The notes beneath the pieces were generated by a model. The model ran no database searches. It was not told the DNA's origin and was given only the letters and a program-made list of their open reading frames with translations. 64,000 bases of DNA, taken from positions 682,001-746,000 of the forward strand of contig NZ_AP024109.1 in NCBI RefSeq assembly GCF_016591715.1, written 5' to 3'. This DNA is from Mesorhizobium sp. J8. GTDB lineage: Bacteria > Pseudomonadota > Alphaproteobacteria > Rhizobiales > Rhizobiaceae. This document shows positions 25,139-31,238 of the stretch, in pieces. A program made the position numbers and the translations under genes. The first letter of the stretch is position 1, and each line of letters starts with the position of its first letter.

Positions 25139-25939
25139 ATGTGCCGGTGGGCGGCCTATCTTGGTGAAGCGGTCTTCCTCGAAGACATCATCACCGTGCC
25201 CTGCCACTCGCTGATCGCCCAAAGCCACTGCGCCCAGGAAGCCAAGTCGCCGACCAATGGCGACGGTTTTGGCCTCGCCTGGTACGGCGACCGGCCGGAG
25301 CCCGGGCTCTACCGCGATATCCTGCCGGCTTGGTCCGATCCTAATCTCAAAAGCCTGTGCCGGCAGATCAAGTCCGGGCTGTTCCTGGCCCATGTGCGCG
25401 CCTCGACCGGCGGCGCCACCAGCCGCATGAACTGCCACCCTTTCGTCTCCGGCCGCTGGTCCTTCATGCATAACGGCCAGATCGGCGGCTTCGAGAAGAT
25501 CCGCCGGGCGCTGGAGAACTCGCTTTCGGATGAGGTCTTCGACCAGCGCGAGGGCACCACCGATTCCGAGCTCTTTTTCCTGGTGATGCTCGACGAGGGG
25601 CTTGCAGATGATCCGCAAGGCGCGGTGTCGCGCGCCACGGTTCGCGTCATCGAGGCCTCGCGCCGAGCCGGCATCGAGCCCGCGCTGAAACTGACCGCGG
25701 CCTTTTCCGATGGCGATGCGCTCTACGCCGTGCGCTACGCTACCGACGACCATGCCCCGACGCTCTATACCGGCGCCTTCGCGAGGCGCGATGGTCGTTG
25801 CATCGTGTCCGAGCCCTTCGATCGCGACGGCGGCGACTGGCAGGCGATCCCGCCATCGAGCTTCGTCACCATGACCAGGGCCGGCACCAGCATCCGGCCA
25901 TTCGCGCCGGCGGCAAGCAAGCTGGCACTCGTCGGCTGA
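25139..25939 (+). CDS. Class II glutamine amidotransferase, copy 1
   Basis: 266 residues beginning MCRWAAYLGE. After removal of Met1, Cys2 is the N-terminal nucleophile of class II (Ntn) glutamine amidotransferases of the YafJ/GATase_4 group. Supporting motifs: HVRASTGGATSRMNCHPF, SFMHNGQIGGF and EGTTDSELFF. It should release ammonia from glutamine or act on a gamma-glutamyl amide; the acceptor is unknown. It is about 80% identical, without gaps, to the next gene. It follows the DUF6356 gene by 16 bases. Confidence 0.9.
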   Translation: MCRWAAYLGEAVFLEDIITVPCHSLIAQSHCAQEAKSPTNGDGFGLAWYGDRPEPGLYRDILPAWSDPNLKSLCRQIKSGLFLAHVRASTGGATSRMNCHPFVSGRWSFMHNGQIGGFEKIRRALENSLSDEVFDQREGTTDSELFFLVMLDEGLADDPQGAVSRATVRVIEASRRAGIEPALKLTAAFSDGDALYAVRYATDDHAPTLYTGAFARRDGRCIVSEPFDRDGGDWQAIPPSSFVTMTRAGTSIRPFAPAASKLALVG

Positions 25940-25970
25940 AACAGACCCGTCGAGACGCTCTCCGGGCAAA

Positions 25971-26001
25971 GATCAGCAAAACGTAAGCGCGGCGTAAGGA
26001 C
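25971..26001 (+). promoter_or_regulatory. 31-bp bipartite motif, copy 1
   Basis: GATCAG (25971-25976), seven variable bases, then TAAGCGCGGCGTAAGGAC (25984-26001). The second block contains a direct repeat of TAAG with an 11-bp period, as expected for OmpR-type winged-helix dimers. The same arrangement recurs at 29924-29954 next to the TPR regulator gene. It lies 90 bases before the second amidotransferase start. Confidence 0.65.
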
Positions 26002-26090
26002 GTCCAAGCTTCCCCCTGTCATCTGTGGCGCCCGAACGAGCGGCGAATCATTCGCGCGCTCAAGAACGTATCGACAAGGATCACAGGACA

Positions 26091-26891
26091 ATGTGCAGGT
26101 GGGCTGCCTATCTCGGCGACGCGATCTTCCTGGAGGACGTCATCGCCGCGCCCTCCCATTCGCTGATCGTTCAGAGCCGTGAGGCGCGGGAGGCGAAATC
26201 GCCGACCAATGCCGACGGTTTCGGCGTGGCCTGGTATGGCGATCGGCCGGAACCCGGCCTCTACCGCGACATCCTCCCGGCCTGGTCCGATGCCAATCTC
26301 AGGAACCTTGGACGCCAGATAAAATCCGGCCTGTTCCTGGCCCATGTGCGCGCTTCGACGGGCGGCGCCACTAGCCGTGCGAACTGCCATCCCTTCGTAT
26401 CCGGTCGCTGGTCGTTCATGCATAACGGCCAGATCGGCGGCTTCGAGCGGATCCGCAGGATGCTGGAGAATTCGCTCTCGGATGCGCTGTTCGACCAGCT
26501 TGAAGGGACCACCGATTCCGAACTCTTTTTCCGCATGATGATCGGCGAAGGCCTTGCGCAGGATCCGCAAGGCGCGGTGTCGCGTGCCACCAGCCGCGTG
26601 CTCGAGGCTGCGCGCCGCGCCGGCATCGACCCGTCCCTGAAGCTGACCGCCGCTTTCAGCGACGGAAAGGCGCTTCATGCTGTTCGCTACGCCACCGACG
26701 ACCAGGCTCCGACGCTCTATACCGCCGCCTTCGCCAAGGGCGTTGGTCGCTGCATCGTCTCCGAGCCGTTCGATCGCGATGGCCGAACTTGGCACGAGAT
26801 TCCGCAATCGAGCTTCGTGACGATGACCCGGGACCGCACCGCCATCCGGCCGTTCGCGCCAGCGGTCATCGAGTGGGCGCTGGCAAGCTGA
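26091..26891 (+). CDS. Class II glutamine amidotransferase, copy 2
   Basis: 266 residues from the ATG at 26091, preceded by AAGGATCACAGGA. Like its upstream twin it starts MCRWAAYLG (nucleophile Cys2) and keeps HVRASTGGATSR, SFMHNGQIGGF and EGTTDSELFF; I count about 53 differences in 266 positions. The two are a tandem duplication with diverged surface positions. Unlike copy 1, this copy has its own upstream region with the 31-bp motif, so the copies are probably expressed under different conditions. Confidence 0.9.
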   Translation: MCRWAAYLGDAIFLEDVIAAPSHSLIVQSREAREAKSPTNADGFGVAWYGDRPEPGLYRDILPAWSDANLRNLGRQIKSGLFLAHVRASTGGATSRANCHPFVSGRWSFMHNGQIGGFERIRRMLENSLSDALFDQLEGTTDSELFFRMMIGEGLAQDPQGAVSRATSRVLEAARRAGIDPSLKLTAAFSDGKALHAVRYATDDQAPTLYTAAFAKGVGRCIVSEPFDRDGRTWHEIPQSSFVTMTRDRTAIRPFAPAVIEWALAS

Positions 26892-26907
26892 GGCCTGAGC
26901 GCACCTT

Positions 26908-26930
26908 CTGCCGGCGGTTTCGGCCGGCAG
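26908..26930. terminator. Hairpin between convergent genes
   Basis: Perfect 8-bp arms CTGCCGGC / GCCGGCAG with a seven-base loop between the convergent amidotransferase and oxidoreductase genes. It lacks a T-run, so it may be a stability stem or a weak terminator. Confidence 0.4.
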
Positions 26931-26935
26931 CGGGG

Positions 26936-28009
26936 CTACTGGGCGAAGCGGGACAGGGCGTAGGGCGCGAGCAACGCATCGCGCTCGCCATCGAGGATCT
27001 CGCGGGCGGCGAACAGTCCCACGGCCGGCGCCAGTGTGATGCCGGAATGGGTGACTGCGATGTAGAGGTCGCCGACACCGTCGGCGCGGCTGACGATCGG
27101 AAAACCATCGGCCGGCGTCGGACGGTAGCCGATGGTGTGGAAGTCGAGTTCCAGACCGTCGGCGCCGCGCAGCATCGCTTTCATAGCTTCGAAAAGCGCG
27201 CTCGCATCGGCCTGCGGGTTCTCGCCCGGCTCGCCTCCGCCGAAGTCAGAGCCGGCGATGATGCGGCCCTCCGCCGTTTGGCGCATATGAAGTTTCTCGG
27301 CCAGCACCAGGCCGTTGAGCAGTTTCTTGTAGGGGCGCGAATGCACGATCAGACCGGGCGGCGTCTCGATCGGCAGCTCGATGCCCGCCGTCGCGGCGAT
27401 CGCCGGAGCCCCGGCGCCCGCCGCAATCACCACCTCGTCGGTGGCTTTGCTCTCCCCCGAAACGACGACGCCCGTCACCTTGCCGTTGGACAGCGTCAGC
27501 CTGTCGACAGTTCCGGTGACGACCCGCGCGCCGCGCCGTTCGGCGTCCGCCAGCAGCGCTTGTGTGGTCGCCACAGGCTCGGCCACGCCTTCCTCTGCGA
27601 CGTGAAGCGCAAACTCGGGAAGGTCCGCCAAAGAGGGCTCGATGCGCGCCGCTTGTTCGCTCCCGACCCGCTCGATGCCGTACCCCCAGGACGAATGCTC
27701 GGCTGCGTAGGCTTCGAGCCTGTCTGCGGGCAGGTCAAAGCACAGGCCGCCGCACATGGCGAGCGGCAGGCCCGGCAGTTCGTTCGCCAGCCGTTCCCAT
27801 TCGGCCATGGCGCGGATGCGCAACCGGAAATAGGTTTCCGGATTGCCCCAGCTCGCATTGATCCAGGCAAATGAATTCGGCGTCGCGATGCCGCCGGCGC
27901 CGCTTGCCGAGACGACCGTCACGCGCGCGCCGGCTTTCGTCAGATGCCAGGCGATCGACGCGCCGATAATACCGGCTCCGATAACGATGACTTGCTTTGC
28001 AGTGCTCAT
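26936..28009 (-). CDS. FAD-dependent oxidoreductase, DAO/DadA-like
   Basis: 357 residues. The N-terminal FAD-binding fold is VIVIGAGIIGASIAWHLTKAGARVTVVSA (residues 7-35), and the C-terminal GYRPTPADGFPIVSRADGVGDLYIAVTHSGITLAPAVG is typical of the D-amino-acid oxidase/glycine oxidase family. It likely oxidises an amine or D-amino acid to an imine. It follows the winged-helix/TPR regulator on the same strand after 51 bases, so it is a candidate target or co-transcribed partner of that regulator. Confidence 0.88.
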   Translation of the reverse strand: MSTAKQVIVIGAGIIGASIAWHLTKAGARVTVVSASGAGGIATPNSFAWINASWGNPETYFRLRIRAMAEWERLANELPGLPLAMCGGLCFDLPADRLEAYAAEHSSWGYGIERVGSEQAARIEPSLADLPEFALHVAEEGVAEPVATTQALLADAERRGARVVTGTVDRLTLSNGKVTGVVVSGESKATDEVVIAAGAGAPAIAATAGIELPIETPPGLIVHSRPYKKLLNGLVLAEKLHMRQTAEGRIIAGSDFGGGEPGENPQADASALFEAMKAMLRGADGLELDFHTIGYRPTPADGFPIVSRADGVGDLYIAVTHSGITLAPAVGLFAAREILDGERDALLAPYALSRFAQ

Positions 28010-28060
28010 GCAGGACCTTTGGGGAGATTTCCCCTCTCATGCCATCGAGCCGGCCAGACC

Positions 28061-29890
28061 TCAAGCGAGAGGCGGCCAGGCGCCGCTCACCGCTACCGCC
28101 TCCGCGCCGGCAATTAGGTCCTTCAGCTCTTCGCAGCGCCGCATGAGCCGGGAAGAGTCAACTTTCCTCGCAACCGCCAACGCCGTGCCGAGCTCCAGCT
28201 CAGCACCGGAAAGATCCCCGGTCTTGATGAGCAGCGCCGCAAGCGACAACCTGGCGTCGGCGGCATTGATCGGCGAGCCGATCTCGTTCCAGCGCGAGCA
28301 TGCGATCTGCAGCTCCCGGGCGGCCTCGGCGAGGCGCTCTTCCTGTATGAAAAGCTCCGCCTTGGCTTCGGCGGTCAGCGCCTGGATGGAAGCCATCGGC
28401 CAGCGCTGCGGCTGCGTCTCCAATTCGGCGATCACCTCTTTCGCCCGCTCGCGCCGGCCGGTGCGTGCCGCCACCTTGGCAAGCGTGGCAAGGACCATGC
28501 CTCGCCGCTGCAGGGTCGGCCAGCCGTTGCCTATCAGGGAACGTTCGAGAGCGCTGAAGGCGGCCTCCGCCTGTCCTTGCTCGAGTTGCAGAAGCGCAAG
28601 TCCGGGCTGAGGATCCCAACCCGCCGCATGCGACGCGCGATATGCGGTTTCGGCTTCCGTGAATTCTCCGGCCGCGAGGTGGATGTCGCCCAGCACGCGC
28701 AAGGCATCGCCGGTCGCCCAGGGCGCGTCGAGGGCGAGTTGATCAAGGGCGGCGCGCACAAGCGCCTCGGCCTCTTTCAGCGTGCCATGAACGCCGAGCA
28801 CTTCGGCGCGGTGCAGCCGGCACGAGCCTGAAAGGTCTTCCAGCCCGTGTCCCCTGCACCAGTCCTCGTAACCTAACGTCCATTGGTTGGCACGCGACCA
28901 GTCGCCGAAATTCCGGCAGGCCCACAGTATGTTGCAGTAGAGGATGCCGCCGACGATCGGATCGACGTCGCTGGAGAGGCCGAGCGCCGCCGCGAGGTCC
29001 TGATCCTCCTGCCCGGATTTGGTTTCGCCGAGGCAAAGCTTGAAGAAGCCGCGGTAGATCAGGCCGAGCGACTCCACCACCGGATCGTCGAGATGCCTGC
29101 CGACTGCGAAGGCCTGCTCGGCGAGCGCTAGCGCCTGTTCCGGTTCGGCTTCCGCGCCCATGATGCGCGCGCCCATCCAGCACCACAGGCCATGTTCCCG
29201 GCTATCGGTGGCGGTATCGATCAACTGCGCGGCGCGCTTGTGCCAGCCTTTGGCAACGGCAAGCTCGCCTCGCTCAAGGTGAATCCTGGCAAGGGTGATT
29301 GCGGGGGAAGCCGCGCGCAAGCGCTCGCCGGCAACGCCGTAGGCCGTCACCGCGCGCGCCAGAAGCGGGATGGCTTCGGCCGGACGCCCCATGCATTCCA
29401 GCGCCAGACCCCATTCTTCGAGGTCGGGTGTCAGCAGCTCGTCGGCGGCATCCGCTCTTGCGAAGGAAACCGCGGCCTCGTGCCATTTCCTGCCTGCAAC
29501 GGCCGCACGTGCCGACAGGATTGACGAGCCTGGGCTCGAAAGCCTGTGGCCCGCATCCGCCGGAGCTGCTCCGTTTTCCGGAGCAACCGCCTGGTCGAGG
29601 CAAATCCGGTAGCCGAAGCGGGGCAGGTTGCGCAGTGCGCTCTCCAGGCCGCCTTGGCGAAGGATGCTCCGGGCAAGGCTCGCGACGCGTTGCAGCGAAG
29701 CCTCGGTCACCGTCACGCCGGGCCACAGTGTTTCAAGCAATTCGTCCTTGCTCATCGCCCGGTCCTGGTGCCGCAGCAAAATGGCGAGGAAATCGAAGAC
29801 GAGGGGCTGTGCCTCGACCTCGCTTCCGGCGAGACGAAGGGCGCGGGTATCCTCGTTGAGTTCGAAGTCGCCGAAGCAATAAATTCCCAT
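28061..29890 (-). CDS. Winged-helix (CadC/OmpR-type) regulator with TPR-rich C-terminus
   Basis: 609 residues from the ATG at 29890. The N-terminal ~100 residues form an OmpR-type winged helix (CFGDFELNEDTRALRLAG ... DELLETLWPGVTVTEASLQRVASLARSIL ... RNLPRFGYRI). The rest is a long run of helical hairpins of the tetratricopeptide kind (repeats such as AAVSFARADAADEL, EALVRAALDQLAL, FTEAETAYRASHAAG). There is no membrane segment or receiver domain, so it is a soluble one-component regulator. The 31-bp motif lies 34 bases upstream of its start. It is followed by the DadA-like gene. The signal is unknown. Confidence 0.86.
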   Translation of the reverse strand: MGIYCFGDFELNEDTRALRLAGSEVEAQPLVFDFLAILLRHQDRAMSKDELLETLWPGVTVTEASLQRVASLARSILRQGGLESALRNLPRFGYRICLDQAVAPENGAAPADAGHRLSSPGSSILSARAAVAGRKWHEAAVSFARADAADELLTPDLEEWGLALECMGRPAEAIPLLARAVTAYGVAGERLRAASPAITLARIHLERGELAVAKGWHKRAAQLIDTATDSREHGLWCWMGARIMGAEAEPEQALALAEQAFAVGRHLDDPVVESLGLIYRGFFKLCLGETKSGQEDQDLAAALGLSSDVDPIVGGILYCNILWACRNFGDWSRANQWTLGYEDWCRGHGLEDLSGSCRLHRAEVLGVHGTLKEAEALVRAALDQLALDAPWATGDALRVLGDIHLAAGEFTEAETAYRASHAAGWDPQPGLALLQLEQGQAEAAFSALERSLIGNGWPTLQRRGMVLATLAKVAARTGRRERAKEVIAELETQPQRWPMASIQALTAEAKAELFIQEERLAEAARELQIACSRWNEIGSPINAADARLSLAALLIKTGDLSGAELELGTALAVARKVDSSRLMRRCEELKDLIAGAEAVAVSGAWPPLA

Positions 29891-29923
29891 CGGCAGCAAT
29901 CCCTGTATCGGCAATAGGCAAAG

Positions 29924-29954
29924 GATCAGAAGAAGATAAGGGCGGCGTAAGGAC
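29924..29954 (+). promoter_or_regulatory. 31-bp bipartite motif, copy 2
   Basis: GATCAG (29924-29929), seven variable bases, then TAAGGGCGGCGTAAGGAC (29937-29954). It differs from copy 1 at one base of the 18-base block and shares the GATCAG and the spacing exactly. It lies between the TPR regulator (start 34 bases away on the reverse strand) and the DUF4242 gene (start 140 bases away). It is probably the regulator's operator. Confidence 0.65.
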
Positions 29955-30094
29955 TGTCGGCCGCCTCTTTTCGTAATTCTCCGTCTGCCTGGCGTGCCAA
30001 ACCGCAGTTTAGCGCAGCGGCCCCCGGGATGTCACCGGCACCCGACCTGATCAGGCGTCCGGTGCATTTGAACCCAGATCAAGGAGATTGCAAA

Positions 30095-30376
30095 ATGCAG
30101 AAATACATCATCGAACGGGAGATTCCCAAGGTCGGCACCTTCGAGCGCCAGCAGCTTCGCGACGCATCCAAGGCCTCGAATGCCGTTCTGGCCGAGCTCG
30201 GCCCGGACATCCAGTGGGTCGAATCCTTCGTGGCCGACGACAAGACCTTTTGCGTCTATCTGGCCAAGGACGAGGCGATCATCCAGCGCCACGCCAAGAT
30301 GAGCGGCTTCCCGGCGACGAAGATCACCGAGGTCAAGCGGCTCTTCGATCCGACGACGGCTTACGCCGCTGCGTGA
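30095..30376 (+). CDS. DUF4242-family small protein
   Basis: 93 residues from the ATG at 30095 with AAGGAGA upstream. MQKYIIEREIPKVGTFERQQL and WVESFVADDKTFCVYLAKDEAIIQRHAKMSGFP fit DUF4242, a ferredoxin-like dimeric alpha/beta-barrel family; from memory, a Streptomyces member was described as nickel-binding. The role here is unknown. It is divergent from the TPR regulator, downstream of the 31-bp motif, and 16 bases before the exported protein gene, so the two are likely one operon under that motif. Confidence 0.82.
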   Translation: MQKYIIEREIPKVGTFERQQLRDASKASNAVLAELGPDIQWVESFVADDKTFCVYLAKDEAIIQRHAKMSGFPATKITEVKRLFDPTTAYAAA

Positions 30377-30392: not shown

Positions 30393-30908
30393 GTGAAGCG
30401 CTTTGCGGAAATTGTCCTTGCCGTAGGCGTAGCTGCGCTGTTTTACGGCACCGCGGCCGCCCATGACATGCCCGATCCAGTGCTCAATCGGTCTCGGGAG
30501 ATGGCGGCCAAGTACCTCGACATCAAGGTCGCCAAGGCGGACGGCTACCGGCAACTGTTCGAATGCACGATGCATGACGAGCACGGCACGATGGGTGTCC
30601 ACTTCATCCATCCCGGCCGCGCCGGCGACGGCAAGCTGGTGCTCGGCGAACCGGACGTGCTGACCTACGAACCGGAAGCCGATGGCTCGATGCAGCTCGT
30701 CGGGATGGAGTACATCGTCTTCGAGAAGGACTGGAGGGGCAAAGGCGTGCCCGAATTCCTCGGCCGCACCCTTCAGCGCAAGACGACGGTGGGCGTCCAC
30801 CCGGTGGATCCCTATTACGAGCTTCATGTCTGGCACTGGCGGCACAATCCGGCCGGCATGTTCGCCGACTGGAACCCGTATGTGAGCTGCGAGCACGACC
30901 GATCCTGA
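30393..30908 (+). CDS. Exported His-rich protein of unknown function
   Basis: 171 residues from a GTG with GAGGGG eight bases upstream. A signal peptide (MKRFAEIVLAVGVAALFYG, cleaved near AAA) leads into a mature domain with MAAKYLDIKVAKADGY, TMGVHFIHPGR, PDVLTYEPEADGSMQLVGMEYIVF and a striking end, YYELHVWHWRHNPAGMFADWNPYVSC. I recognise this as a widespread but unnamed family; the conserved His and Trp suggest a metal or haem site, which is an inference. It is co-transcribed with the DUF4242 gene. Confidence 0.78.
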   Translation: MKRFAEIVLAVGVAALFYGTAAAHDMPDPVLNRSREMAAKYLDIKVAKADGYRQLFECTMHDEHGTMGVHFIHPGRAGDGKLVLGEPDVLTYEPEADGSMQLVGMEYIVFEKDWRGKGVPEFLGRTLQRKTTVGVHPVDPYYELHVWHWRHNPAGMFADWNPYVSCEHDRS

Positions 30909-30986
30909 AAGGCGTGACGCGCAGCGTCCTCGGGAGGGCCACGCAAGGCCCTCCCGATCCCGTCGTTCAGACCAGGGAAAATGATC

Positions 30987-31238
30987 ATGCCAACCCTTCT
31001 CACGGGAATGAAGCCCATCGCCCGTCGGTCAGTTAACCGACGTTTCTTGGCGCCAGCCGCGGAAATATGCCGCTCCTGCTTGCGCCTGCCCGCGCGAACC
31101 GTCCGCATCCGCAGGGATCGCGCCTGGCTGGACGAGCTGCCGGATTATCTGCTGCGCGACATCGGTATCGAACGCTCGGAAATCTCGCTGGCCGTCTGGT
31201 TCGGCGGCAGGACCCGTCGCGGCGGTCCGTGGATTTGA
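30987..31238 (+). CDS. DUF1127 small basic protein
   Basis: 83 residues from the ATG at 30987 (an ATG two codons earlier is too close to the AGGG site). The C-terminal RAWLDELPDYLLRDIGIERSEI is the DUF1127/YjiS-like signature; the rest is very basic. In alphaproteobacteria DUF1127 proteins have been linked to phosphate or carbon stress and small-RNA turnover, from memory. It is separated by 78 bases from the exported-protein gene, so co-expression is possible. Confidence 0.85.
   Translation: MPTLLTGMKPIARRSVNRRFLAPAAEICRSCLRLPARTVRIRRDRAWLDELPDYLLRDIGIERSEISLAVWFGGRTRRGGPWI

Follow-up and report, generated by a model that had tools for sequence, protein, structure and literature searches.

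The stretch of DNA analysed here, referred to as the window, comprises 64,000 nucleotides of the Mesorhizobium sp. J8 genome (contig NZ_AP024109.1, positions 682,001 to 746,000) and carries two copies of a 31-bp element, which we call operators A and B after the role we propose for them. Operator A occupies 25971..26001 on the plus strand and has the form GATCAG-N5-CGTAAG-N5-CGTAAGGAC (TCAG at 25973, TAAG at 25984 and 25995, GAC at 25999-26001); operator B occupies 29924..29954 on the same strand and has the form GATCAG-N5-GATAAG-N5-CGTAAGGAC (TCAG at 29926, TAAG at 29937 and 29948, GAC at 29952-29954). Both stand where the sequence-only reading that first drew attention to them had placed them, A before the second of two amidotransferase genes and B between a regulator gene and a DUF4242 gene. 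Amidotransferase copy 1 lies directly 5' of operator A, and 89 bases separate the end of A from the ATG of copy 2 (26091..26891, plus strand), an EgtC-like class II glutamine amidotransferase (GATase) and the putative target of A. Operator B sits 33 bp 5' of the regulator's own ATG (gene at 28061..29890, minus strand; ATG at 29890) and precedes the ATG (30095) of the gene for a DUF4242, or SCO4226-like, protein (30095..30376, plus strand; PF14026, 83.2 bits against a cut-off of 28.5), its predicted conserved target. Further along the plus strand come the genes for an exported protein (30393..30908), probably part of the DUF4242 operon and present in 11 of the 20 regulator loci fetched for comparison, and for a DUF1127 small protein (30981..31238; PF06568), probably the operon's last gene and present in 19 of the 20. 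A DadA-like oxidoreductase gene, which has no copy of the element, is found 51 bp downstream of the regulator on the same strand.

The regulator consists of an OmpR-type winged helix (residues about 1-97), a flexible linker and an all-helical TPR superhelix. In Pfam it matches Trans_reg_C (PF00486) at 28.5 bits, against a gathering cut-off of 26.2, and TPR_12 at 38.5 bits; the Trans_reg_C score of one orthologue (L102) is 51.2 bits, and the winged-helix profile matches CadC (5ju7) and PhoB (1gxp). An AlphaFold2 model with a mean predicted local distance difference test score (pLDDT) of 92 assigns residues 3-96 to the sheet, three helices and hairpin of the winged helix and residues 122-602 to helices; the linker between them, at 100-117, is of low confidence. 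The Pfam scan at E 0.001 gave only Trans_reg_C and TPR families, with no match to a receiver domain, a BTAD or a nucleotide-binding domain. The putative recognition-helix residues S65, L66, Q67, R68, S71 and R74 are invariant across 38 relatives, and C166, C319, C357 and H360 of the TPR part are likewise invariant among regulator relatives. Among 120 of 380 matches listed, relatives are named, if at all, by domain or as "hypothetical protein".

The two copies of the element are a true and isolated pair. The blocks TAAGCGCGGCGTAAGGAC (25984-26001) and TAAGGGCGGCGTAAGGAC (29937-29954), both on the plus strand, are the only matches to their motif in the window at up to three mismatches, and none of 100 dinucleotide shuffles reproduced two such matches. 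GATCAG precedes each block, at 25971 and 29924, across an identical 7-base gap, and 23 of the 24 fixed positions agree, as the sequence-only reading had reported; in the host genome (one contig, 6,690,860 bases) A and B are the sole exact matches and the runners-up carry two mismatches. At up to three mismatches the genome holds 49 places for the motif and 124 for a reversed-pattern control. Among 121 sampled family genomes the exact pattern TAAGNGCGGCGTAAGGA occurs in the window's own genome only. The 11-bp TAAG period described earlier holds, but GATCAG is not the separate element it had been taken for: it belongs to the first of three units of 11-bp period in a tandem array, TCAG-N7-TAAG-N7-TAAGGAC. 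For the pattern TMAG-N7-TAAG-N7-TAAG, A and B are the genome's only exact matches; allowing one mismatch gives five places, against 11 in the reversed control.

Conservation is concentrated in the units themselves. Across 19 aligned sites from six lineages, the three units keep T in 19/19, A in 18-19/19 and G in 16-19/19; GA precedes units one and two in 17-18 of the 19, and at the array end G and A are kept in all sites and the final C in 18. The spacers vary, except for an A in the first (17/19), and every site terminates in TAAGGAC or a one-base variant of it. When the core columns (three TMAG units plus GAC) are compared with the rest of their intergenic regions, leaving out B row L033 and A row L020, identity is 0.997 against 0.882 for B (24 sequences; placement rank 1 of 173) and 0.991 against 0.736 for A (15 sequences; rank 1 of 120). 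The arrays are oriented toward the gene downstream of them, and in the 19 sites a -10-like hexamer, chosen by eye (TATAGC, TAATTT, TAGTTT, TAATTC, TCATCT and similar), begins 17-19 nt past the terminal GAC. In the window the inferred promoter elements, both on the plus strand, are TCATCT at 26019..26024 for amidotransferase 2, 17 nt past GAC in a conserved block at fixed spacing, and TAATTC at 29974..29979 for the DUF4242 gene, 19 nt past GAC (18 in relatives with one base fewer); within the genus, conservation beside the operator extends to the blocks around TGTCATC (A) and GTAATTCT (B). No consensus sigma-70 promoter was found in the promoter regions of A and B. Array, orientation and spacing are thus established by comparison, and since a spacing of 17-19 nt from GAC to the -10 is what would be expected if GAC formed part of the -35, the layout fits a class II activator site that directly adjoins the -35.

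We favour, with a probability of about 0.82, the reading in which both elements serve as operators for the OmpR-type winged-helix/TPR protein encoded next to them. This protein would be a one-component regulator that acts by class II activation and has the DUF4242 gene as its conserved target. Winged helices would line up head-to-tail along one face of the DNA, on the three 11-bp units (GATMAG-N5); the array would adjoin a weak -35 whose GAC is the conserved array end, RNA polymerase would be recruited to the -10 located 17-19 nt downstream, and a signal would be taken up by the TPR superhelix. The exported protein and DUF1127 genes would follow the DUF4242 gene as part of the conserved target. 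On a single occasion, in one Mesorhizobium lineage, the promoter element would have come to stand in front of a tandemly duplicated core class II amidotransferase gene, bringing that enzyme into the regulon. Binding of the array by the regulator, activation rather than repression, and the signal are the parts that we infer. If the proposal is right, sequence alone yields a regulator, its operator, a promoter geometry and a conserved target; the circuit opens DNA binding, polarity and signal to direct testing, and the pattern can be used for related regulators.

The same regulator could instead act on the same array as a repressor, covering the -35 until released by its signal. The third unit does abut the -35 position, and copy B lies so close before the regulator's own start (33 bp) that auto-repression comes to mind. 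However, the units extend 5' beyond the -35 without covering the -10, the -35 itself (xxGACx) is a poor one, in the manner of activator-dependent promoters, and the OmpR-type direct-repeat arrays of SARPs activate (PMC10936776, PMC5930380). We consider repression unlikely, though it withstands the evidence better than any other alternative.

Within Mesorhizobium the array travels with the regulator. In a genus sample of 146 genomes, in which regulator relatives were scored at E 1e-100 and the array as TMAG-N7-TMAG-N7-TAAGGAC with one mismatch allowed, relatives were found in 35 genomes, 29 of them at identities of at least 81% and six at 43-45%. All 29 genomes with a close orthologue carry the array at B, between the regulator and the DUF4242 gene, and 21 of the 29 carry it at A as well. 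Operator A is present in all 21 regulator-bearing genomes with two amidotransferases and absent from all eight with one or none. The amidotransferase itself occurs in 121 of the 146 genomes and is doubled in 22, namely the 21 just mentioned and G226, which holds a regulator remnant. DUF4242 proteins of at least 91% identity are confined to exactly the 29 close-regulator genomes, apart from a truncated copy in G226. In the 20 fetched regulator loci the window's motif is found at B in every case with at most two mismatches, and at A only in the 15 with two amidotransferases; operator A of L016 differs by four mismatches and keeps its three-unit array intact. Ten of the 29 close regulator matches show one stop within the matched stretch. 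G226 (L090, G226:C199) has an internally deleted amidotransferase 2 and has lost operator B, the bulk of the regulator and the 5' part of the DUF4242 gene, so that the parts of the circuit look as if they were decaying together, although an assembly fault could be the cause.

The association extends to remote orthologues. In all 14 loci with a remote orthologue, spread over five other lineages at 41-52% identity, an array with different spacers stands before a DUF4242-type gene. They comprise the second Mesorhizobium group (43-45% identity), in which regulator, array and DUF4242-like gene follow one another in this order on one strand in six of six, and full-length orthologues outside the genus (41-52%, four families), with the array before the DUF4242-type gene in eight of eight. 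The latter come from an order-wide scan of 397 genomes, which gave 16 matches to the regulator at E 1e-30. When the 300 bp upstream of the DUF4242 match were shuffled 2000 times per locus, preserving dinucleotides, an array appeared on the same strand in 1 to 10 of the 2000, so that about 0.04 loci would be expected by chance, against 14 observed. The array is thus kept beside orthologues (29/29 close, 14/14 remote) rather than scattered at random, and co-occurrence, like the layout, rests on comparison among genomes. In nine of the 14 remote loci (L096-L101, L107-L109) the regulator lies 5' of the DUF4242 array on the same strand, which identifies the DUF4242 gene as the conserved target and indicates that autoregulation is not conserved; autoregulation via copy B is possible in the window. 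Fifteen other TPR matches (L002-L008, L110-L117; 14 at 27-31% identity and one partial copy at 48%) have neither array nor DUF4242 gene in flanks of up to 1.5 kb. One genome, G180, has a close-type circuit at C17 and also, at the start of contig C47 (L163), an exact remote-type array found by pattern alone, with a relative of the remote regulator, cut by the contig start, on one side and on the other a separate DUF4242 gene that shares 91% identity with the remote one.

The comparison also took in 11 regulator-less loci (L167-L176 and L182), nine from genomes with no regulator match and two from G165 and G126, which carry a remote orthologue elsewhere. AsnC, DUF6356 and amidotransferase 1 are kept in all 11 and the oxidoreductase together with prfC in nine; L167 ends at the contig start and L175 has prfC without the oxidoreductase. 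None of the 11 has an array, a second amidotransferase, a DUF4242 gene, an exported protein gene or a DUF1127 gene. On these findings, the regulator, operator B and the DUF4242, exported protein and DUF1127 genes look like a single insert between the oxidoreductase and prfC. The earlier proposal that the TPR protein controls all these genes through a shared operator is therefore upheld by comparison for the DUF4242 gene and amidotransferase 2, but not for the DadA-like oxidoreductase, which has no array and persists in nine of the 11 regulator-less loci. We rejected it as a direct target; at most it would be co-transcribed behind the regulator.

A different response regulator of the OmpR family might also bind the array, the TPR protein being a mere neighbour. 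Direct repeats of this period, of the 11-bp type, are used by many response regulators, and the window's winged helix resembles those of PhoB and CadC by sequence. Yet the only two exact arrays of the genome both stand at the regulator locus, the array accompanies the TPR protein through five other lineages, and it is missing from the 11 loci that lack that protein. This alternative is very improbable.

In a tree of 47 amidotransferases the 16 second copies form one clade (support 97/95), which by comparison gives amidotransferase 2 a single origin; the regulator-less rows require four changes, so that presence of the module does not follow one simple clade. Flanks of A and B were compared in 18 loci, L022 and L178 being counted as one genome. 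In L022, L177 and L178, the deepest amidotransferase 2 lineage, A and B are similar over about 85 bp including both flanks; in L015-L017 the similarity extends into the upstream flank only; and in the remaining 12 only the operator stands out, the flanks being no better than shuffles (at most 5 of 300). This pattern points to a copying event between promoters A and B, in one direction or the other. It could be argued from the first two groups that the repetition is a by-product of copying and operator A a promoter copy of no regulatory meaning. But 12 of the 18 loci have kept the operator although their flanks are no longer alike, and the core of A far exceeds its surroundings in identity (0.991 against 0.736), so copying would account for the origin of the repeat and not for its retention; we give the idea little credence. 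The locus would then be a case of a duplicated enzyme brought under the control of a regulator, with a single origin in the tree.

As the source of the shared sequence, an RNA element or a coincidence of coding has next to no likelihood: although TAAGAACGGCGTAAGGAC does occur inside a conserved gene of many Mesorhizobium genomes, A and B are both intergenic, their spacers vary around fixed 11-bp units, and Rfam gave no match up to E 0.5 in 25900-30150. The coding occurrences (L062 and like loci) are a trap for motif searches. They make up 36 of 86 motif places and were set aside as coincidence, the eight inspected sharing flanks and one open reading frame (ORF) reading PKNGVRT there; L092 and L095 were dropped with them on account of similar flanks, and L091, L093 and L094 because no part of the module lay nearby. 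The other 45 places are operators A and B, including operator A of G226.

Several observations weigh against the favoured reading. Intergenic region B is conserved throughout in the genus (0.882), which makes the conservation of B there weak evidence alone. Two sites, the second arrays of L108 and L109, have weak -10-like elements (CAATTT and CATTTT), the first unit has decayed at the DUF4242 site of L107-L109 (three of the 19 sites), and there are single deviations elsewhere: L106 has TCGG for its first unit, L104 has TCAG for its third, and the array of L097 ends in GGAT. Of a different kind is an additional, fourth TCAG unit at the DUF4242 promoter of L103-L105, set one period 5' of the other three. 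DUF4242 relatives of 35-54% identity stand at 15 further places in the genus, mostly in genomes without the regulator, so the family does not need it. Operator A is still present in G226, where the regulator is no longer intact, though amidotransferase 2 and the DUF4242 gene are damaged there too. Finally, sampling 385 genomes across the class turned up no additional orthologue at E 1e-60, so that the evidence rests on one order.

A broader proposition is that GATMAG three-unit arrays ending in GAC are a shared operator code of undescribed winged-helix/TPR one-component regulators of the Hyphomicrobiales, whose regulons grow by capture of promoter modules. We offer this tentatively, as something that may well turn out otherwise. 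It draws on a second, different winged-helix/TPR regulator with a TCAG-type array upstream of it, described below. Capture, if real, would have brought in amidotransferase 2 in Mesorhizobium and, in another family, a PALP-glutaredoxin fusion along with an EamA transporter. From the nature of these genes, the signal might be thiol, gamma-glutamyl or metal stress, and C166, C319, C357 and H360, in the TPR part, would then be candidates for sensing it. The second set of genes is known from three remote loci of one genus, where a second array faces a divergent operon; in L154 this operon encodes the EamA transporter and the PALP-glutaredoxin fusion, and relatives of both occur in the other two loci. 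Recruitment of an EamA transporter and a pyridoxal-phosphate enzyme-glutaredoxin gene, on the minus strand 5' of the regulator in L153-L155 (domains scanned in L154 only), is independent of that of the amidotransferase.

The arrangement resembles several known systems without coinciding with any of them. Like PhoB/OmpR response regulators, the protein has a winged helix by sequence and a putative direct-repeat site of 10-11 bp period, and PhoB itself uses direct-repeat boxes upstream of a poor -35; unlike them, it has no receiver-domain match and a TPR superhelix in its place, which argues for a one-component system rather than a phosphorelay. With HilA/EilA and CadC it shares the N-terminal OmpR-type winged helix and a weak NCBIfam similarity, but the scores are far under the cut-offs (25.6 against 589; 21.8 against 400) and the targets differ. 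Compared with SARPs, the window regulator is alphaproteobacterial, has no match to a BTAD or a nucleotide-binding domain, and would use GATMAG as its unit; the BTAD is itself helical and TPR-like, so that a remote relationship to SARPs may exist. PimR and AfsR of Streptomyces, which belong to the SARPs, combine an OmpR-type domain with tandem direct repeats of 11-bp period (PMC5930380, PMC10936776), and the main PimR operator consists of three 7-bp repeats with 4-bp spacers (PMC5930380). The window regulator is alike in pairing an OmpR-type winged helix with a putative operator of three direct repeats of 11-bp period. In SARP promoters the 3' repeat lies 8 bp from the -10, whereas the window array stops close to the -35 and the -10-like element begins 17-19 nt past GAC. 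The full-text literature on winged helix plus TPR with Mesorhizobium or rhizobia, in which subscription papers are mostly outside coverage, yielded no paper. The kind of operator is known, as an OmpR/SARP direct repeat, and the array here is a new version of it, of which these full-text searches returned no description.

As for the gene products, the DUF4242 protein belongs to the same Pfam family (PF14026) as the nickel-binding protein SCO4226 of Streptomyces coelicolor, which was absent among the seven PDB sequences matched by the window protein at E 10. SCO4226 binds nickel with low affinity, and the authors of that work leave its cellular function for future study (PMC4186839); in Streptomyces its gene is lowered under oxidative stress via HbpS-SenS-SenR (PMC4991794). 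Full-text literature on DUF4242 and SCO4226, again with subscription papers mostly outside coverage, returned no rhizobial title. The exported protein belongs to no Pfam family, and neither Foldseek nor VIA gave a clear PDB match for it; 13 residues are invariant in 45 sequences of its family and its AlphaFold2 model is confident. Both amidotransferases are EgtC-like yet fall under the TIGR03442 cut-off (193.4 and 184.1 against 218.65 bits), and the solved sequence nearest to copy 2 is 3mdn.

A related array, TCAG-N7-TCAG-N7-TCAGGAC, occurs elsewhere in 13 Mesorhizobium genomes, with no occurrence in the window's genome at up to three mismatches. Downstream of it, on the same strand, a small ORF and then a second winged-helix/TPR regulator follow in all seven loci fetched (L156-L162, with the array at about 5.7-6.0 kb); the intervening uncharacterised ORF is 80 aa long in L156, and the regulator frame is split into two pieces in L158. 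The winged helix of this second regulator is 37-38% identical to that of the window regulator (two compared). Weak one-mismatch matches to the window's array lie in the genus at G197:C1:3978705, G204:C111, G234:C10 and G234:C37, and shifted-register matches in G178, G196, G199 and G225 are part of operators A and B themselves. Finally, G525:C7 and G403:C1 (L164 at 5443 and L165 at 5184) have in common a TCAG/TAAG/TAAGCAC array 5' of a gene that, named by eye, is outer-membrane-protein-like.

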